Source of the DNA: Deferribacteraceae bacterium
Lineage (GTDB): Bacteria > Chrysiogenota > Deferribacteres > Deferribacterales > JAISNW01
Reading direction: 5' to 3'
DNA: 37,936 nt
NCBI GenBank assembly: GCA_031256375.1
Contig: JAIRQX010000099.1
Span: forward strand, 1-37,936
Below, piece after piece: positions 250 to 17,873 of this stretch; within the stretch, counting starts at the first letter, position 1; each line of letters begins with the position of its first letter. Both the position numbers and the translations under genes were made by a program. The notes below the pieces were generated by a model. It saw only the letters and a list, made by a program, of their open reading frames with translations. It ran no database searches and was not told the DNA's origin.

Positions 250-2184
250 TTACGAAAATTGTCTTCTCACAAGCCATACGGCGGAAGCTAAAAGTATCAA
301 TACCGCAGCGCCGGAAAAACCGCCCTCATTTCCTCCGGCTGCGCAGCCAAAGTAGTTTCTGCCTGATGAAGAACTTGGCACAATTATTTTGGGCGGTTTG
401 GTCTCCGGATAGTTGCTGTTATTAAACCCGCCAGTGCGCTCAGGGTAGTCTGACGTAACCGCACACGCGCCGCCCGCGTCTTTACAACTTTTCACCGCTA
501 TAAGGAATGCCGCAATATCAATCTGTCTTCCCCCCTGAACTTTACCGTCAAGTTCGGGTATTTTGCGCGCACTGTCATAAAGCATATTCATAAGCCGCCC
601 CGGTCCGGCATCCGGATAAACTGCCGCTCCCGCCGCAATTATACCCGTTACAAAAGGCGCAGACATAGATGTGCCTGACATTGATGTCAGACTGTCCGCA
701 TAGTCGGCGGCGCCTATAAGAAGTTTGTTTATTGTTACGCTTGGAGACGGGGAAGAGGCGCTTAAATTGCCGTCTACAAGAACCATAACGCTGATTGTTG
801 TCGTATTCGCCGGAATTTCATAAAAAAAGAACCTATTGCTTTCCTGTTTATCGCTGAATGCCTCCAGTCTCCAGACTGGCGAATTATTACGCCTGATATA
901 CATATTAAGGGAACATCCGGAAGATTCGCAAACAAGGTTATTGTCGTAATTTAAAGATACAGACTTTTTTTTGCGGCTTGAAACAGATGTAAGATTTATG
1001 TTATCCACAGTAAAGTTATCACTGCCCGTACCTTTGGCGTATATAAGTTTTTCTCCCGCCCTGCTCCAATTGCCGCCCATATTTGTAGGCGCTTGATGGG
1101 CGCTTTGATGAGTGCTTTGGTAAAGGATTCCCGAAGGGTTGGTTGCGTTATCCACCCCTTTACCCAGAAAATAAATAGCTGTGCTTAATATTCCGTTTCC
1201 CGGAGCGGCTATTGTAACAGCGCCGCCATAATTGCTGTACCCCGCCAGTTTGAGATTATCATCCAGCGCCGCTACGGTTATAATATTTTCAAGGTCGTAA
1301 CTCCCCGGGTACATAGGGGTTTGACTGACATCATAATTTTCATTGCCGGCGGCGGCGACAACTATAATGCCATTCTCTTTAAGACGCTCCATTGCGTTAT
1401 ATTCGGCTTTTGAAGGTTCATAACTGCCATAGCTCATATTTACTGCCACCACAGGTACGCCCTGTTGTTTTTGGCTGATTATAAATCCTATGGCATCTAT
1501 TATCTTGGCATTTGACAGGGATGCCCCGCCGACGCTTGCATTTGCCGGAAAAATATGCACTTTGCCGTAACCTGCGCCAGCCACGCCAAAATTATTGTCA
1601 TTAGCGGCGCCTACTATCCCCGCTACATGAGTGCCGTGTCCTTCACGGTCATCAGAGCCGTCTGCCGGATAACGGAGGGGGACGCCTAATCCCGTATCCC
1701 AGAGTATATTATATCCGTTGTCATTGAGGTTGTCTTTGTAGTTTATATCTCTGTGAACATCAACGATCCCTGAGTCTATAAAAGCGGCAACCGGTCCGCC
1801 GTTCCTGCCAAGAGGCGGGACGGCGTCCATTACATCTTTGCCGTCAAGCCAGCCTATTTTATCGTTATTAAGCGCCCACTGCTCAGGAAAATTAGTGTCT
1901 GAAGGGATTTCAGCTAAAAGATATCTGTATATGACCGGTTCATATTCATCAGCTACACCGTCACTGAGAAGTTTTTTGGCTGTAGTTTCGCCTACAACGT
2001 AATAACATTGCTCCTCAACGCACACTGTTTCGTACTGCGGCATTTCTTGTGAATATAGTCTGCGTGTGTCAGCAGTATGACGCGACACCGGCACAAGAAA
2101 CTTTCGCTCATCAATATCAGGATTGTCATACGCAAAAACCGGTATGTTAAAAAGCAGTAACAGTAACACGCTGATAATGCGCAT
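250..2184 (-). CDS. Secreted subtilisin-like serine protease (S8) with C-terminal sorting anchor
   Basis: A 644-residue preproprotein. Residues 1-18 are a signal peptide. The S8 catalytic triad is visible as D137 (in AAFIDSGI), H183 (in GHGTHVAG) and S506 (in GTSMSAP), with the oxyanion-hole Asn at N281 (AAGNEN). Between N281 and the catalytic Ser the catalytic core carries an insert of roughly 150 residues (about 335-490), rich in beta-type sequence. The C-terminus has a Ser/Pro-rich linker, C614 in a GCAAGG motif, a hydrophobic segment and a short RR-containing tail, which is a Cys-type tripartite sorting signal. The protein is probably exported and surface-anchored. It lies 5 bp after proC and is likely translated from the same message. 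Substrate unknown. Confidence 0.9.
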   Translation of the reverse strand: MRIISVLLLLLFNIPVFAYDNPDIDERKFLVPVSRHTADTRRLYSQEMPQYETVCVEEQCYYVVGETTAKKLLSDGVADEYEPVIYRYLLAEIPSDTNFPEQWALNNDKIGWLDGKDVMDAVPPLGRNGGPVAAFIDSGIVDVHRDINYKDNLNDNGYNILWDTGLGVPLRYPADGSDDREGHGTHVAGIVGAANDNNFGVAGAGYGKVHIFPANASVGGASLSNAKIIDAIGFIISQKQQGVPVVAVNMSYGSYEPSKAEYNAMERLKENGIIVVAAAGNENYDVSQTPMYPGSYDLENIITVAALDDNLKLAGYSNYGGAVTIAAPGNGILSTAIYFLGKGVDNATNPSGILYQSTHQSAHQAPTNMGGNWSRAGEKLIYAKGTGSDNFTVDNINLTSVSSRKKKSVSLNYDNNLVCESSGCSLNMYIRRNNSPVWRLEAFSDKQESNRFFFYEIPANTTTISVMVLVDGNLSASSPSPSVTINKLLIGAADYADSLTSMSGTSMSAPFVTGIIAAGAAVYPDAGPGRLMNMLYDSARKIPELDGKVQGGRQIDIAAFLIAVKSCKDAGGACAVTSDYPERTGGFNNSNYPETKPPKIIVPSSSSGRNYFGCAAGGNEGGFSGAAVLILLASAVWLVRRQFS

Positions 2185-7140: not shown

Positions 7141-8247
7141 CTACTCAGCCAGTACGCTTTTTACCAAATTTCTCGGTTTATCCACGTCTTTGCCTAATCC
7201 TTTTGCCGTAAAATAGGCAAAAAGCTGTGCCACTACTACTGTTAAAAACGGTGACACCTCCTCATTGCAATCAGGGATGTAAAGCTGGTGATCAGATTCA
7301 GGGCGATCGTTCCGGCTTATTTCGGACATTACCGCGATAACTTTTGAACCGCGCGCCCTCGCTTCCTGAAGGTTTGAAAATATTTTGTCATTAGCCTTTC
7401 CCGCAGGAACAAAAATCATTACGGGAAAATTTTCATCAAGTATAGCTACGGGTCCGTGTTTTAATTCGCCGGAAGGGTAGGCTTCCGAATGTATATATGT
7501 TGTTTCTTTAAGTTTCAGCGCGCCTTCAAATGCGATGGGGCAGTTATAATGTCTGCCCAGATAAATAAAATGTCCGGTGTTTTTATAAAAATCCGCCGTT
7601 TCTTTTACCGTTTTCTCTGTTTTTAAAACCCGCCGGATCTTCTCCGGAAGATTCAGAAGCTCATTCAGCATTGCGGAAACAGTGTTATTGTCAATGGTTT
7701 TACGTTTTTCGCCTAACCATAACGCAAACAGTAAAAAAGTTACAGCCTGTGACATAAACGCTTTAGTTGATGCAATGCTGATTTCCGGTCCAGCGTACGT
7801 ATATATTGCGTAATCCGCTTCTCTAGCCATTGAGGAACCAATCACATTGCATACGGCAACTATCTTCCCTCCAAGTTTTTTCGCAGTCTGCATAGCGTTT
7901 TTTGTATCTGTAGTCTCCCCTGACTGGCTGACGCACATACACAATACGTCCTTATTAAGCGTTAAATCACTGTTTGGATATTCGGACGCGATCTGTACCT
8001 CAACAGGTATTTGAGCATATTTTTCAATAAAAATTTTGCCTAAAAGTCCTGAATGCCAACTTGTGCCGCAGGCAAGCACCAAAATCCGCTCAATATCGGA
8101 AACTGAACTTTCAAGAGGGGTCAGCTCGCTGATATACAACTTACCCGTGTCCGGCAACACTCTTCCCTTAAGAGTATCTATAACCGTTTGAGGCTGTTCA
8201 TGTATTTCTTTTAGCATAAAATCGTCATAACCGCTTTTATCGCACAT
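7141..8247 (-). CDS. glmS: GlmS isomerase half only (lacks the glutaminase domain)
   Basis: A 368-residue protein corresponding to the C-terminal two SIS domains of glucosamine-fructose-6-phosphate aminotransferase. Full-length GlmS is about 610 residues. The ORF starts at the interdomain linker (GYDDFMLKEIHEQP) that in full-length enzymes follows the N-terminal glutamine amidotransferase domain. Isomerase motifs are intact: ACGTSWHSG, SQSGETTDT, STKAF, GELKHGP and the terminal DKPRNLVKSVLAE. An SD (AAGGAG, 8258-8263) lies 10 nt before the ATG. Only about 37 bp separate it from the glmU stop, so no glutaminase fragment remains. It could be an ammonia-using isomerase, need a separate amidotransferase, or be a decaying or misassembled gene. 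Confidence 0.85.
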   Translation of the reverse strand: MCDKSGYDDFMLKEIHEQPQTVIDTLKGRVLPDTGKLYISELTPLESSVSDIERILVLACGTSWHSGLLGKIFIEKYAQIPVEVQIASEYPNSDLTLNKDVLCMCVSQSGETTDTKNAMQTAKKLGGKIVAVCNVIGSSMAREADYAIYTYAGPEISIASTKAFMSQAVTFLLFALWLGEKRKTIDNNTVSAMLNELLNLPEKIRRVLKTEKTVKETADFYKNTGHFIYLGRHYNCPIAFEGALKLKETTYIHSEAYPSGELKHGPVAILDENFPVMIFVPAGKANDKIFSNLQEARARGSKVIAVMSEISRNDRPESDHQLYIPDCNEEVSPFLTVVVAQLFAYFTAKGLGKDVDKPRNLVKSVLAE

Positions 8248-8284
8248 AAAAAATAATCTCCTTAAATTTTTTGTGATATTTGCA

Positions 8285-9637
8285 TTAACTCTTTTTTTTG
8301 GCTCTTATATGGTCAGCTTTCCCTTCTAGAACCACCTGCGGCGTGCGTGATATGCCAAGCGCATTGTCCGGCACATTTCTTGTAATAGTTGAACCTGCGG
8401 CGATAATTACATCTTTTCCGACAGTAACGGGGGCTACAAACTGCACATCGCTTCCGACAAAGGTTCCGTCCCCTATAATTGTTTTATACTTTTTAAATCC
8501 GTCATAGTTGCATGTTATTGTGCCGCAGCCAATATTGACAGCCGAACCAATTTCACAGTCTCCCAGATAAGTCAGATGATTGGATTTGCTTTCATGACCC
8601 ATTTTCGCTTTTTTCAGTTCAACAAAATTCCCGACGCTGTTTTTTCCTGTCAGAACAGAACCCGGGCGTATATGCGCCATAGGTCCTATTTTACATTCTT
8701 TTCCTATCTCGCTTCCCTCTATCAGTGTATTTTCCTTGATCACGCTGTCCGCACATATCACAGAATCAATTATGCGCACCCCGCTGTAAAGTGTCACGCC
8801 TGTTTCCAGTAAACATTTCCCTTCCAGATAAACATTCGGATAAATTGTCACATCGTTTTCTATAACCGTTTCCGCTGAGATATAAACACTGTCAGGATCT
8901 ATAAGGGTTACACCGTTAAACATATGTTTTTGAGCGCGTTCTCTCCAAATTTTTTTCTCCATAACCGAAAGCTGTGAACGGTCATTTATTCCTATGAATT
9001 CATTTTCATTATCAGCGCACCATGCAAACGCGCCGTCCGACACAATATCCGTGAGGTAATACTCTTTCTGGGCATTTTTATTTTCAACTTTTTTAAGGTG
9101 GTTAATAAGAACATCCGCTTTACAATAGTATATTCCTGTGTTTATTTCGTTAATTTTTTTCTCTTCAGGGGTTGCGTCTGTCTCTTCCACTATCTTAATG
9201 ACACTTCCGCCGGCGGAACGGACAACGCGTCCGTACCCCTTCGGATCAGGTGATTTTACAGTTATAAAAGAGGTTGACGATGATTCGGATTTCTCAATAA
9301 AACGTTTAATGGCTTCAATTTTTATGTTAGGCATATCAGCGCAGAGTATAAGGACATTTCCTTTATAATCTTTTAAAAATTCTTCCGCCGCAATAACTGC
9401 GTCAGCGGTACCCTGTTGTTTTTTCTGGACGCAAAAGTTTACTCCGGAATCAGCAAACGTTTTTTGAATTGTTTCTGATTCCTGATTAACCACAACCACT
9501 ATTTTTTCCGGACATAATCCCTCCGCAAGTTCAATAGCGTATGAAAGCATGGGTTTGCCCGCTACATTAAAAAGAACTTTGGGTATTTTTGACTTCATTC
9601 TGGCGCCTTTACCGGCGGCTAAAATTATTACAAGCAT
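8285..9637 (-). CDS. glmU: Bifunctional N-acetylglucosamine-1-phosphate uridyltransferase/glucosamine-1-phosphate acetyltransferase
   Basis: A 450-residue cytoplasmic enzyme, normal length. It performs the last two steps to UDP-GlcNAc. The N-terminal nucleotidyltransferase domain carries LAAGKGARMKSKIPKVL and the QQGTADAV block. The C-terminal left-handed beta-helix acetyltransferase domain carries RPGSVL, NFVELKKAKMG, HLTYLGDCEIG and GCGTITCNYDG. It lies immediately upstream of the truncated glmS on the same strand, so hexosamine synthesis forms a short operon, possibly begun by the small LSm-like gene. Confidence 0.97.
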   Translation of the reverse strand: MLVIILAAGKGARMKSKIPKVLFNVAGKPMLSYAIELAEGLCPEKIVVVVNQESETIQKTFADSGVNFCVQKKQQGTADAVIAAEEFLKDYKGNVLILCADMPNIKIEAIKRFIEKSESSSTSFITVKSPDPKGYGRVVRSAGGSVIKIVEETDATPEEKKINEINTGIYYCKADVLINHLKKVENKNAQKEYYLTDIVSDGAFAWCADNENEFIGINDRSQLSVMEKKIWRERAQKHMFNGVTLIDPDSVYISAETVIENDVTIYPNVYLEGKCLLETGVTLYSGVRIIDSVICADSVIKENTLIEGSEIGKECKIGPMAHIRPGSVLTGKNSVGNFVELKKAKMGHESKSNHLTYLGDCEIGSAVNIGCGTITCNYDGFKKYKTIIGDGTFVGSDVQFVAPVTVGKDVIIAAGSTITRNVPDNALGISRTPQVVLEGKADHIRAKKKS

Positions 9638-15866: not shown

Positions 15867-16643
15867 ATGGATAAGATATTTTTTACAAAAGCCATAACCC
15901 GTTTACCCGGGGAAGATTTTGCAAACGGGCTTACCACATCTGGTCTGGGGCTTCCCGATCTGTCTCTTGCCGTCAATCAGCATACGGAGTATATTTCTGC
16001 GTTGAAACGCCTAAACATTGATGTAGATGTGCTTCCGCCGCTTTCAGGTATGCCTGACGCCTGTTTTGTTGAGGATACGGCAATCGTTACCGAAGAGACA
16101 GCGGTAATTACACACCCGGGAGCAGTTTCCCGCACAGGGGAAACTGACAGTATATCCGCGGTCTTATCGCAGTATAAAAGTGTCCGGCGTATCAACGGAA
16201 AGGGAGCGACGATTGATGGCGGCGATGTTCTTCTGGTTGGGGATACTTTTTTTGTGGGGATAAGCAATCGCACAAACAGAGCGGGAATGGACGAGTTCGC
16301 CGCAATTTTGACGCCTTACAACCGTTATAAATTTGTCCCCGTAGAAGTTGCAGACGGGCTGCATCTGAAATCCGGCGTCACGCAAATAGCGCCGTACAAG
16401 CTGTTTATTACCAAAGAACTGGCGGATAACCCAGCTTTTACCCCTTATAAAAAAGTTATTGTCCCTGATGGGGAAGAGTATGCGGCAAACACGCTTCTTA
16501 TAAACGGAACGCTTCTTATGAGCGGAGGATTCCCGAAAAGCGCGCAGGTATGTAAAGATGAAGGGTGTAAGGTAATAGTTCTTAATATGAGCGAATACAG
16601 AAAGATGGATGGCGCTCTGACCTGTTTAAGCCTTAGGTTTTAA
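15867..16643 (+). CDS. ddaH: Dimethylarginine dimethylaminohydrolase-family amidinohydrolase
   Basis: A 258-residue pentein-fold enzyme matching DDAH in length and motifs: FVEDTA with E69 and D70, GGDVLLVG, the catalytic His166 in GLHLKSG, and the nucleophile Cys253 in ALTCLSLRF at the C-terminus. DDAH converts methylated arginines to citrulline. Bacterial relatives can also act on arginine or on other guanidines, so substrate is inferred from family only. The 3' end overlaps the convergent LRR gene by 18 nt. Confidence 0.88.
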   Translation: MDKIFFTKAITRLPGEDFANGLTTSGLGLPDLSLAVNQHTEYISALKRLNIDVDVLPPLSGMPDACFVEDTAIVTEETAVITHPGAVSRTGETDSISAVLSQYKSVRRINGKGATIDGGDVLLVGDTFFVGISNRTNRAGMDEFAAILTPYNRYKFVPVEVADGLHLKSGVTQIAPYKLFITKELADNPAFTPYKKVIVPDGEEYAANTLLINGTLLMSGGFPKSAQVCKDEGCKVIVLNMSEYRKMDGALTCLSLRF

Positions 16644-17873
16644 CGGTCTTAATTTCAGCAGTATTACCAGCGCCGCTAACAAAATAATCCCCTCCAAAAA
16701 ATCTCCTGCCCCCGCGCTGCAACCTCCCGGACCGGAAGGTTTGCCGATCATATCCGATACGTTGTCGCTTTTATTGTCTACAATAGTTACCGGCTGAAGC
16801 AGGTCTCCGTTGACTATGGTTAACATATCGTAATCGTTCGCCTGCGGATATTTTTCGCACTGATGGTCTTTTCTGACATTTTTTACCAGATAAAGCGACA
16901 TCTGGTCTATATCCGGAATACAGTTGTAGCTTAAGCCCAATTCCTGAAGGTAGCCGTCGCGTATTATCTTCTTAAATGACGATATATCGGTGATGCTGTT
17001 TCGGTCAAGAGCAATAACAACCGGATACGGCAGTTTTCCTATAGGCGATGCGTCGCTGATATAATTTTGTGAAAGTTCAAGATGGGTGAGTTTTGTGAGA
17101 TTATCAACAAATTTAACGCTGCTTATGCGGTTATTTTTTGCGTATATTGCGGTAAGCTCTGTTGATTTTGTAAGCGGGGCGAGGTCTGTAAGCATATTAA
17201 CGTTAAAATTCACCATACGGAGACTTGTTATGTTATCTAGTATCATTATGGATGACAGCCGATTGTCTGCCATATGCAGGTATTGAAGTGAGTTCATTCT
17301 GTGGAGCGGGGTAATATCTGTGATTTTATTAGATTCCAGATTAAGAATGTACATATGGGTCAGGTTGTCAAGCGGAGTAATGTTAGTGATATATTCCGGA
17401 GCCTGTCTGTACAGGATAAGCGTTTGCAGATTAACAAGGTCGGCTAAAGGGCTCAGGTCGGTAATATGGTTTTCTGATAAATTCAGGTAGTATAGGTTTG
17501 GAAGTGATGTCAGCGGGGTGAGATTATCAATCTCGCTGCCGGGTATTTCAAGCCTTATAAGTTTTGTAAGGGATGAAAGAGGGGAAAGGTCAGATATTTT
17601 AGTCCCGTAATTGCCCATACTGATGGTCTCAAGATTAGGGAACTGTTCAATTCCTTCAAAACTTGAGACGGTCGGATCGTTACATCTGATATTTACTACT
17701 TTAACAGCATCTTCCTCATATATCGGATTCATGTATATATTGGGGATATTGTTGCGTATGCACTGCTCAAGCCTTGTTTTTTCAGGAAATGCGATTACTT
17801 TATGATCGTATGCGCCGCAGACGGATGCGGTTGTAAAAGATAAGATCAGCAAAGCAATTATTATCTTGTCCAT
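16626..17873 (-). CDS. Exported leucine-rich-repeat (internalin-like) protein with Cys-type sorting anchor
   Basis: A 415-residue protein. Residues 1-20 are a signal peptide ending CGA. Residues about 70-330 hold nine or ten leucine-rich repeats of about 22 residues with the internalin/SDS22 spacing (for example LTSLPNLYYLNLSENHITDL). The C-terminus has a GPGGCSAGAG motif with C385, a hydrophobic stretch and a basic tail, like the subtilase at 250-2184. It is likely surface-exposed and protein-binding; the partner is unknown. Its predicted -10 box lies so close that the mRNA may be leaderless, and no SD is visible. Confidence 0.87.
   Translation of the reverse strand: MDKIIIALLILSFTTASVCGAYDHKVIAFPEKTRLEQCIRNNIPNIYMNPIYEEDAVKVVNIRCNDPTVSSFEGIEQFPNLETISMGNYGTKISDLSPLSSLTKLIRLEIPGSEIDNLTPLTSLPNLYYLNLSENHITDLSPLADLVNLQTLILYRQAPEYITNITPLDNLTHMYILNLESNKITDITPLHRMNSLQYLHMADNRLSSIMILDNITSLRMVNFNVNMLTDLAPLTKSTELTAIYAKNNRISSVKFVDNLTKLTHLELSQNYISDASPIGKLPYPVVIALDRNSITDISSFKKIIRDGYLQELGLSYNCIPDIDQMSLYLVKNVRKDHQCEKYPQANDYDMLTIVNGDLLQPVTIVDNKSDNVSDMIGKPSGPGGCSAGAGDFLEGIILLAALVILLKLRPLKPKA

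Follow-up and report, generated by a model that had tools for sequence, protein, structure and literature searches.

An isomerase-only glmS gene and parallel losses of glutaminase function in a Deferribacterales lineage

Amidotransferases are the textbook example of substrate channelling, which is held to be necessary because free cellular ammonia is scarce. GlmS makes the first amino sugar of the cell wall, and a glmS gene that encodes only the isomerase half of its product raises the question of where such an enzyme would obtain its nitrogen, and whether it still makes GlcN-6-P at all. We examined this question for a gene located on a 37.9-kb contig (C98), analyzed over its whole length and called the window here, from the draft genome G000 (1.95 Mb, 128 contigs, 95.6% complete).

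An isomerase-only ORF beside glmU

The locus comprises the following features, all on the minus strand.

7141-8247 (-): glmS isomerase half, 368 aa, with two SIS domains and the C-tail; GlmS models matched from position 244/245
8248-8284 (-): glmU-glmS intergenic gap of 37 bp, the apparent scar of a deletion of about 240 codons; G002 has a full-length glmS here
8258-8263 (-): Shine-Dalgarno sequence AAGGAG with a 10-nt spacer to the ATG, read directly
8285-9637 (-): glmU, intact and bifunctional, of the same pathway, upstream and in the same orientation; TIGR01173 548.1 bits (cut-off 366.85)

The glmS ORF ran for 368 codons from an ATG at 8247-8245, 37 bp beyond the glmU stop codon at 8287-8285; direct reading of the letters confirmed both this spacing and the ribosome-binding signal as given in a preliminary description of the locus. 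The matches to NF001484 (429.6 bits, cut-off 381) and TIGR01135 (421.1 bits, cut-off 418.05) began at profile position 244/245 and reached the end of the profile; both GlmS cut-offs were passed even with the glutaminase domain (the first ~244 profile positions, 40%) absent. Pfam detected two SIS domains and no GATase domain in the ORF. These matches bear out the earlier view that the gene begins at the linker and retains both SIS domains and the catalytic C-terminus. The closest solved structure was 1MOQ, the isomerase domain of GlmS from E. coli (6e-81 across ORF residues 3-367), a similarity that fixes the fold, and the catalytic residues Q348, S349, T352, E488, H504 and K603 (mature E. coli numbering) were all kept. 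GlcN-6-P deaminases of the GlmD/NagB-II type also have two SIS domains, no glutaminase and a chemistry of sugar phosphate and ammonia, but the ORF fell far short of the cut-offs of their equivalog models (95 bits, cut-off 580; 113 bits, cut-off 430). Judged by its sequence, the ORF is a true member of the GlmS family.

The preliminary description had left room for a second full-length glmS or a stand-alone GATase2 domain elsewhere in the genome, and neither was found in G000. The window ORF was the sole GlmS copy in this 95.6% complete draft, and the sole GATase_6 match, on another contig, was the start of PurF rather than a detached GlmS glutaminase. Within the window there was no Rfam match to an RNA regulator of glmS, and no stable leader fold was present upstream of the gene. 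Among the other window genes were a subtilisin-like serine protease of 644 aa (250-2184, minus strand), with no NCBIfam family above cut-off, and a leucine-rich-repeat protein (16626-17873, minus strand) with weak internalin-type repeat similarity (about 110 bits against a cut-off of 1600).

Origin of the short gene and selection on the remaining half

In the sister genome G002 a full-length glmS began directly after glmU, where the window has its 37-bp gap, and the Met with which the window ORF starts has its counterpart in the linker of relatives (G002 EEMAERDGFDDFM, window MCDKSGYDDFM; relatives' motif EMAE(K/R).G(F/Y).DFM). Because the full-length gene occupies the same place and the linker Met is common to the relatives, this comparison identifies an in situ deletion of ~240 codons, after which the gene starts at an internal linker Met with its own Shine-Dalgarno sequence. 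The gap leaves no room for a glutaminase remnant, and nothing convincing in the way of repeats was found at the deletion junction. Other genera of the same family carried full-length GlmS. The preliminary description had asked for an intact glutaminase domain in relatives; three family members have one, and we read this as the ancestral state and not as evidence of an artefact. No true isomerase-only glmS was found among 63 distant GlmS loci: three short-framed candidates were frameshifts with the glutaminase in a neighbouring frame, and one further short locus was cut at a contig edge. A Deferribacterales glmS copy without an in-frame Cys, one of two in G018 (L006, 766-2600), was set aside because an in-frame stop after ~49 codons marks it as a pseudogene; the other copy is intact. 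In another relative a second glmS was split among several frames (G013:C1:755495-760724).

The dN of the isomerase half was 0.27-0.37, and 0.30-0.37 in the comparisons of G000 with its relatives, where 63-67% of third codon positions had changed compared to 19-22% of second positions, the same as among intact relatives. This pattern indicates purifying selection on the isomerase half. Together with the retained catalytic residues and the parallel GATase losses described below, it favours the functioning isomerase that had been suggested at the outset over random decay.

We next considered residues that are otherwise conserved, taking 84 other GlmS as the reference for invariance, by which 65 isomerase columns were near-invariant. 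Four of these columns were changed in both G000 and G002 (V399, A602, T606 and V607), while the catalytic residues were unchanged. The probability of such an overlap by chance was 0.005 (hypergeometric), a value computed for two sisters that are not independent. The corresponding codons in the window are as follows.

7774-7776 (-): codon 158, equivalent to V399, encoding Ile (Val in 84/84 others); Ile in G002 too
7144-7164 (-): C-tail codons 362-368, VKSVLAE against the consensus AKSVTVE (A602V, T606L, V607A; K603 kept)

We take V399 to be a site with a role in the ammonia channel. A602, T606 and V607 were invariant in 84/84 other GlmS and all three were altered in both the window and G002; they are located in the C-tail, which forms the ammonia channel together with Trp74 (PMC7948480). 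The glutaminase domain of G002 GlmS was present but degenerate (T76A, N98D and a shortened Q-loop) and was still constrained, with a dN as in intact domains and Cys1 kept. T76 and N98, the latter being the oxyanion-hole Asn, were unchanged in 81/81 other sequences covering both positions.

Parallel losses in other glutamine-dependent synthases

The loss is genome-wide, which goes beyond what the preliminary description saw. In both G000 and G002, five Gln-dependent synthases (GlmS, GuaA, PurF, PyrG and CPSase) appear from their sequences to have lost glutaminase function by unrelated routes, with their synthase parts conserved. GuaA in G000 consisted of the ATPPase domain alone, encoded just after guaB with its Shine-Dalgarno sequence preserved, and in G002 the GATase domain of GuaA was internally deleted. 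PurF without the nucleophile Cys and propeptide was encoded at two loci.

G000, contig C106 (L040, 1-507): PurF starting MVGVYG
G002, contig C149 (L042, 1050-2396): PurF starting MAVAGVYG, against ECGVAGVYG in the outgroup G010

In both proteins the nucleophile Cys that follows the start or propeptide was gone, and the phosphoribosyltransferase half of PurF in G000 was intact on a separate contig. Other family members had a different PurF of 620-645 aa that looks acquired from elsewhere. PyrG in G000 and G002 read FFGLGS(L/M)G in place of FFGICLG (C379 to Ser, with a one-residue insertion) and FLPEY in place of FHPEF (H515 to Leu), so that neither protein has the triad Cys and His any longer. 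CarB was intact in G000, and CarA was not found in G000 (95.6% complete draft) or G002 (87%), same-family query included.

A survey of class I GATases gave two clear matches in G000 and three in G002 compared to 6-8 in better assembled members of the order, and TrpE/TrpG were not found. The loss of glutaminases was not total, as HisH, PurQ/PurL and GatA remained: HisH kept its Cys, His and Glu in both genomes, and PurQ in G002, the long PurL in G000 (with GATase motifs present) and GatA were intact. Glutamine would still be made, given a glutamine synthetase in each genome (GSIII in G000, GSI in G002), and with these amidotransferases kept it would still be used in some steps. The same synthetases rule out glutamine-synthetase loss as the driver. 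On contig C5 of G000 (L094) the GSIII-type gene adjoins that for the long PurL with its intact fused GATase, and the two were perhaps transferred together.

A concatenated tree of the synthase domains joined G000 and G002 as sisters with 100% support, with G001, G003 and G004 apart, and places G002 in a sister genus of the window genome. Since the sisters share the PyrG changes, the losses are seen in two independently assembled genomes. Glutaminases of GlmS, GuaA and PyrG were intact in G001, G003 and G004, and working glutaminases were kept in these three other family members surveyed and in the rest of the order.

Nitrogen supply and function of the isomerase half

An NADP-type glutamate dehydrogenase (GDH) was present in G000 and G002, and searches of the two drafts found neither AmtB nor GOGAT; in G003 and G004 the situation was reversed, with GOGAT and AmtB present and GDH not found. 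NadE was of the short, ammonia-type form in G000 and G002, in which neither NagB nor AsnA was found as an ammonia-using replacement. The presence of GDH, the failure to find AmtB and GOGAT and the short NadE fit cells bathed in ammonia. Deferribacterota are known from insect guts, and the insect-gut Termitispirillaceae/JAISNW01 have genomes of 1.6-2.15 Mb with a GC content of 40-44% (PMC12887300), values with which the 1.95 Mb of G000 and the 42.9% GC of the window agree. The habitat is probably an insect gut, and ammonia would be high there; hindguts of soil-feeding termites contain up to 130 mM (PMC7886697). A dimethylargininase-like protein encoded at 15867-16643 (plus strand) of the window scored 210 bits, less than the 450-bit cut-off, and might supply ammonia or an amine from the arginine side.

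We propose that the window ORF is probably a working GlcN-6-P synthase that does not use glutamine, is fed by ammonia and forms one part of a lineage-wide switch. We also lean towards the broader reading, in which free ammonia would feed the clade's GlmS, PurF, GuaA, PyrG and carbamoyl-phosphate synthase, and the window ORF would be the first natural GlmS isomerase half that depends on ammonia for GlcN-6-P synthesis. The enzymes would accordingly use free NH3 in vivo, and the GlmS isomerase half would be able to do so. Fru-6-P would bind the retained sugar site, His504 would open its ring and Lys603 would form the Schiff base, and NH3 from the cytosol or solvent would enter on the side that the glutaminase domain, now lost, would have covered. 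Across five amidotransferase steps of hexosamine, purine and pyrimidine synthesis, free ammonia would thereby have replaced nitrogen channelled from glutamine in this lineage. The proposal is boldest for GlmS, since the E. coli enzyme is not known for useful ammonia-dependent synthesis. GMP synthetase can work on external NH3, even when its ATPPase subunit stands alone (PMC10526850), and the same holds for CTP synthase (PMC9138612).

The isomerase half shares its fold, catalytic residues and glmU linkage with canonical two-domain GlmS/GFAT (TIGR01135, NF001484), from which the window ORF differs in its missing N-terminal glutaminase domain and its altered V399, A602, T606 and V607. Mammalian CPS1 is also an ammonia-using synthase, as proposed here, and in its GATase-like domain Ser replaces the nucleophile Cys, as in PyrG of G000 and G002; CPS1 differs in being an N-acetylglutamate-activated enzyme of ureagenesis, and a single enzyme compared to a genome-wide switch. 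The archaeal GuaAb (the M. jannaschii ATPPase subunit, Km for NH4+ 4.1 mM; PMC10526850) stands alone like GuaA in G000, but archaeal GMP synthetase has a GATase partner subunit and none was found in G000. Single-domain NAD synthetase (NadE type N) is likewise a synthase that lacks a glutaminase and takes free ammonia in vivo, although, unlike the window GlmS, this short form is regarded as ancestral and is common, occurring in 44% of genomes (PMC3376133). In Table 1 of that study every GuaA, PyrG and CarAB has a glutaminase component, among 600-800 genomes each, GlmS not being tabulated. In the literature searched, with most subscription journals outside it, we found no published report of a natural isomerase-only GlmS, an ammonia-dependent GlmS or a concerted loss of glutaminases. 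Ammonia-using synthases of a single domain are already known for NadE, and what would be new is the concerted five-enzyme loss with an isomerase-only GlmS.

A different explanation is that no amination takes place, and that the isomerase half instead isomerizes hexose phosphates or takes part in breaking down GlcN-6-P while amino sugars are salvaged from the environment. The isolated C-terminal domain of E. coli GlmS does have phosphoglucose-isomerase-like activity, and a gut habitat supplies amino sugars. In addition, GlmM was not found in the G000 assembly; it is present in other family members, and G002 has only a C-terminal fragment of it at a contig end (G002:C27:7-252). G000 may have a gap in its assembly at glmM, may have lost the gene or may use another phosphomutase in its place, and the missing GlmM leaves room for this explanation. 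We nevertheless consider it unlikely, as G000 has a separate Pgi-like gene (on C9), searches revealed no NagA or NagB and for NagK only a weak ROK-kinase match, synteny with an intact glmU is retained, and the Schiff-base lysine and every other conserved catalytic residue are unchanged.

The preliminary description had offered free ammonia or an external amidotransferase as the nitrogen source. Of these two, free ammonia is favoured because no stand-alone GlmS-type glutaminase and no GlsB were found in G000, and the external glutaminase is disfavoured. HisH, PurQ/PurL and GatA are present and look intact, and one of these or another glutaminase might feed ammonia to the truncated GlmS in trans. 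This is very improbable, since no extra stand-alone class I/II GATase was found in G000, the walls of the channel have changed where they face the lost domain, and such docking would be needed by each of five unrelated synthases. That the ORF is a decaying remnant of a hexosamine synthesis being lost is scarcely tenable: the insect-gut clade is biosynthetically reduced (PMC12887300) and glmM was not found in G000, but the gene keeps 368 open codons, a Shine-Dalgarno sequence, all catalytic residues and third-position-biased divergence at the rate of its intact relatives. Removal of the N-terminal half by an assembly or binning artefact, conceivable in a draft of 128 contigs, has next to no probability given a clean, in-frame junction with a Shine-Dalgarno sequence inside a 37.9-kb contig and the parallel damage to GuaA, PyrG and PurF in two genomes that were assembled separately.

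On the reading that we prefer, of an ammonia-fed GlmS within a lineage-wide switch, a clade with five lost glutaminases would be a natural experiment on when channelling is dispensable and which channel residues are then freed. It would also bear on whether ammonia can serve as a substrate for the isomerase half of GlmS, and through this on the GlmS mechanism and on drug targeting. In genomes, the glutaminase losses would mark organisms that live at high ammonia.
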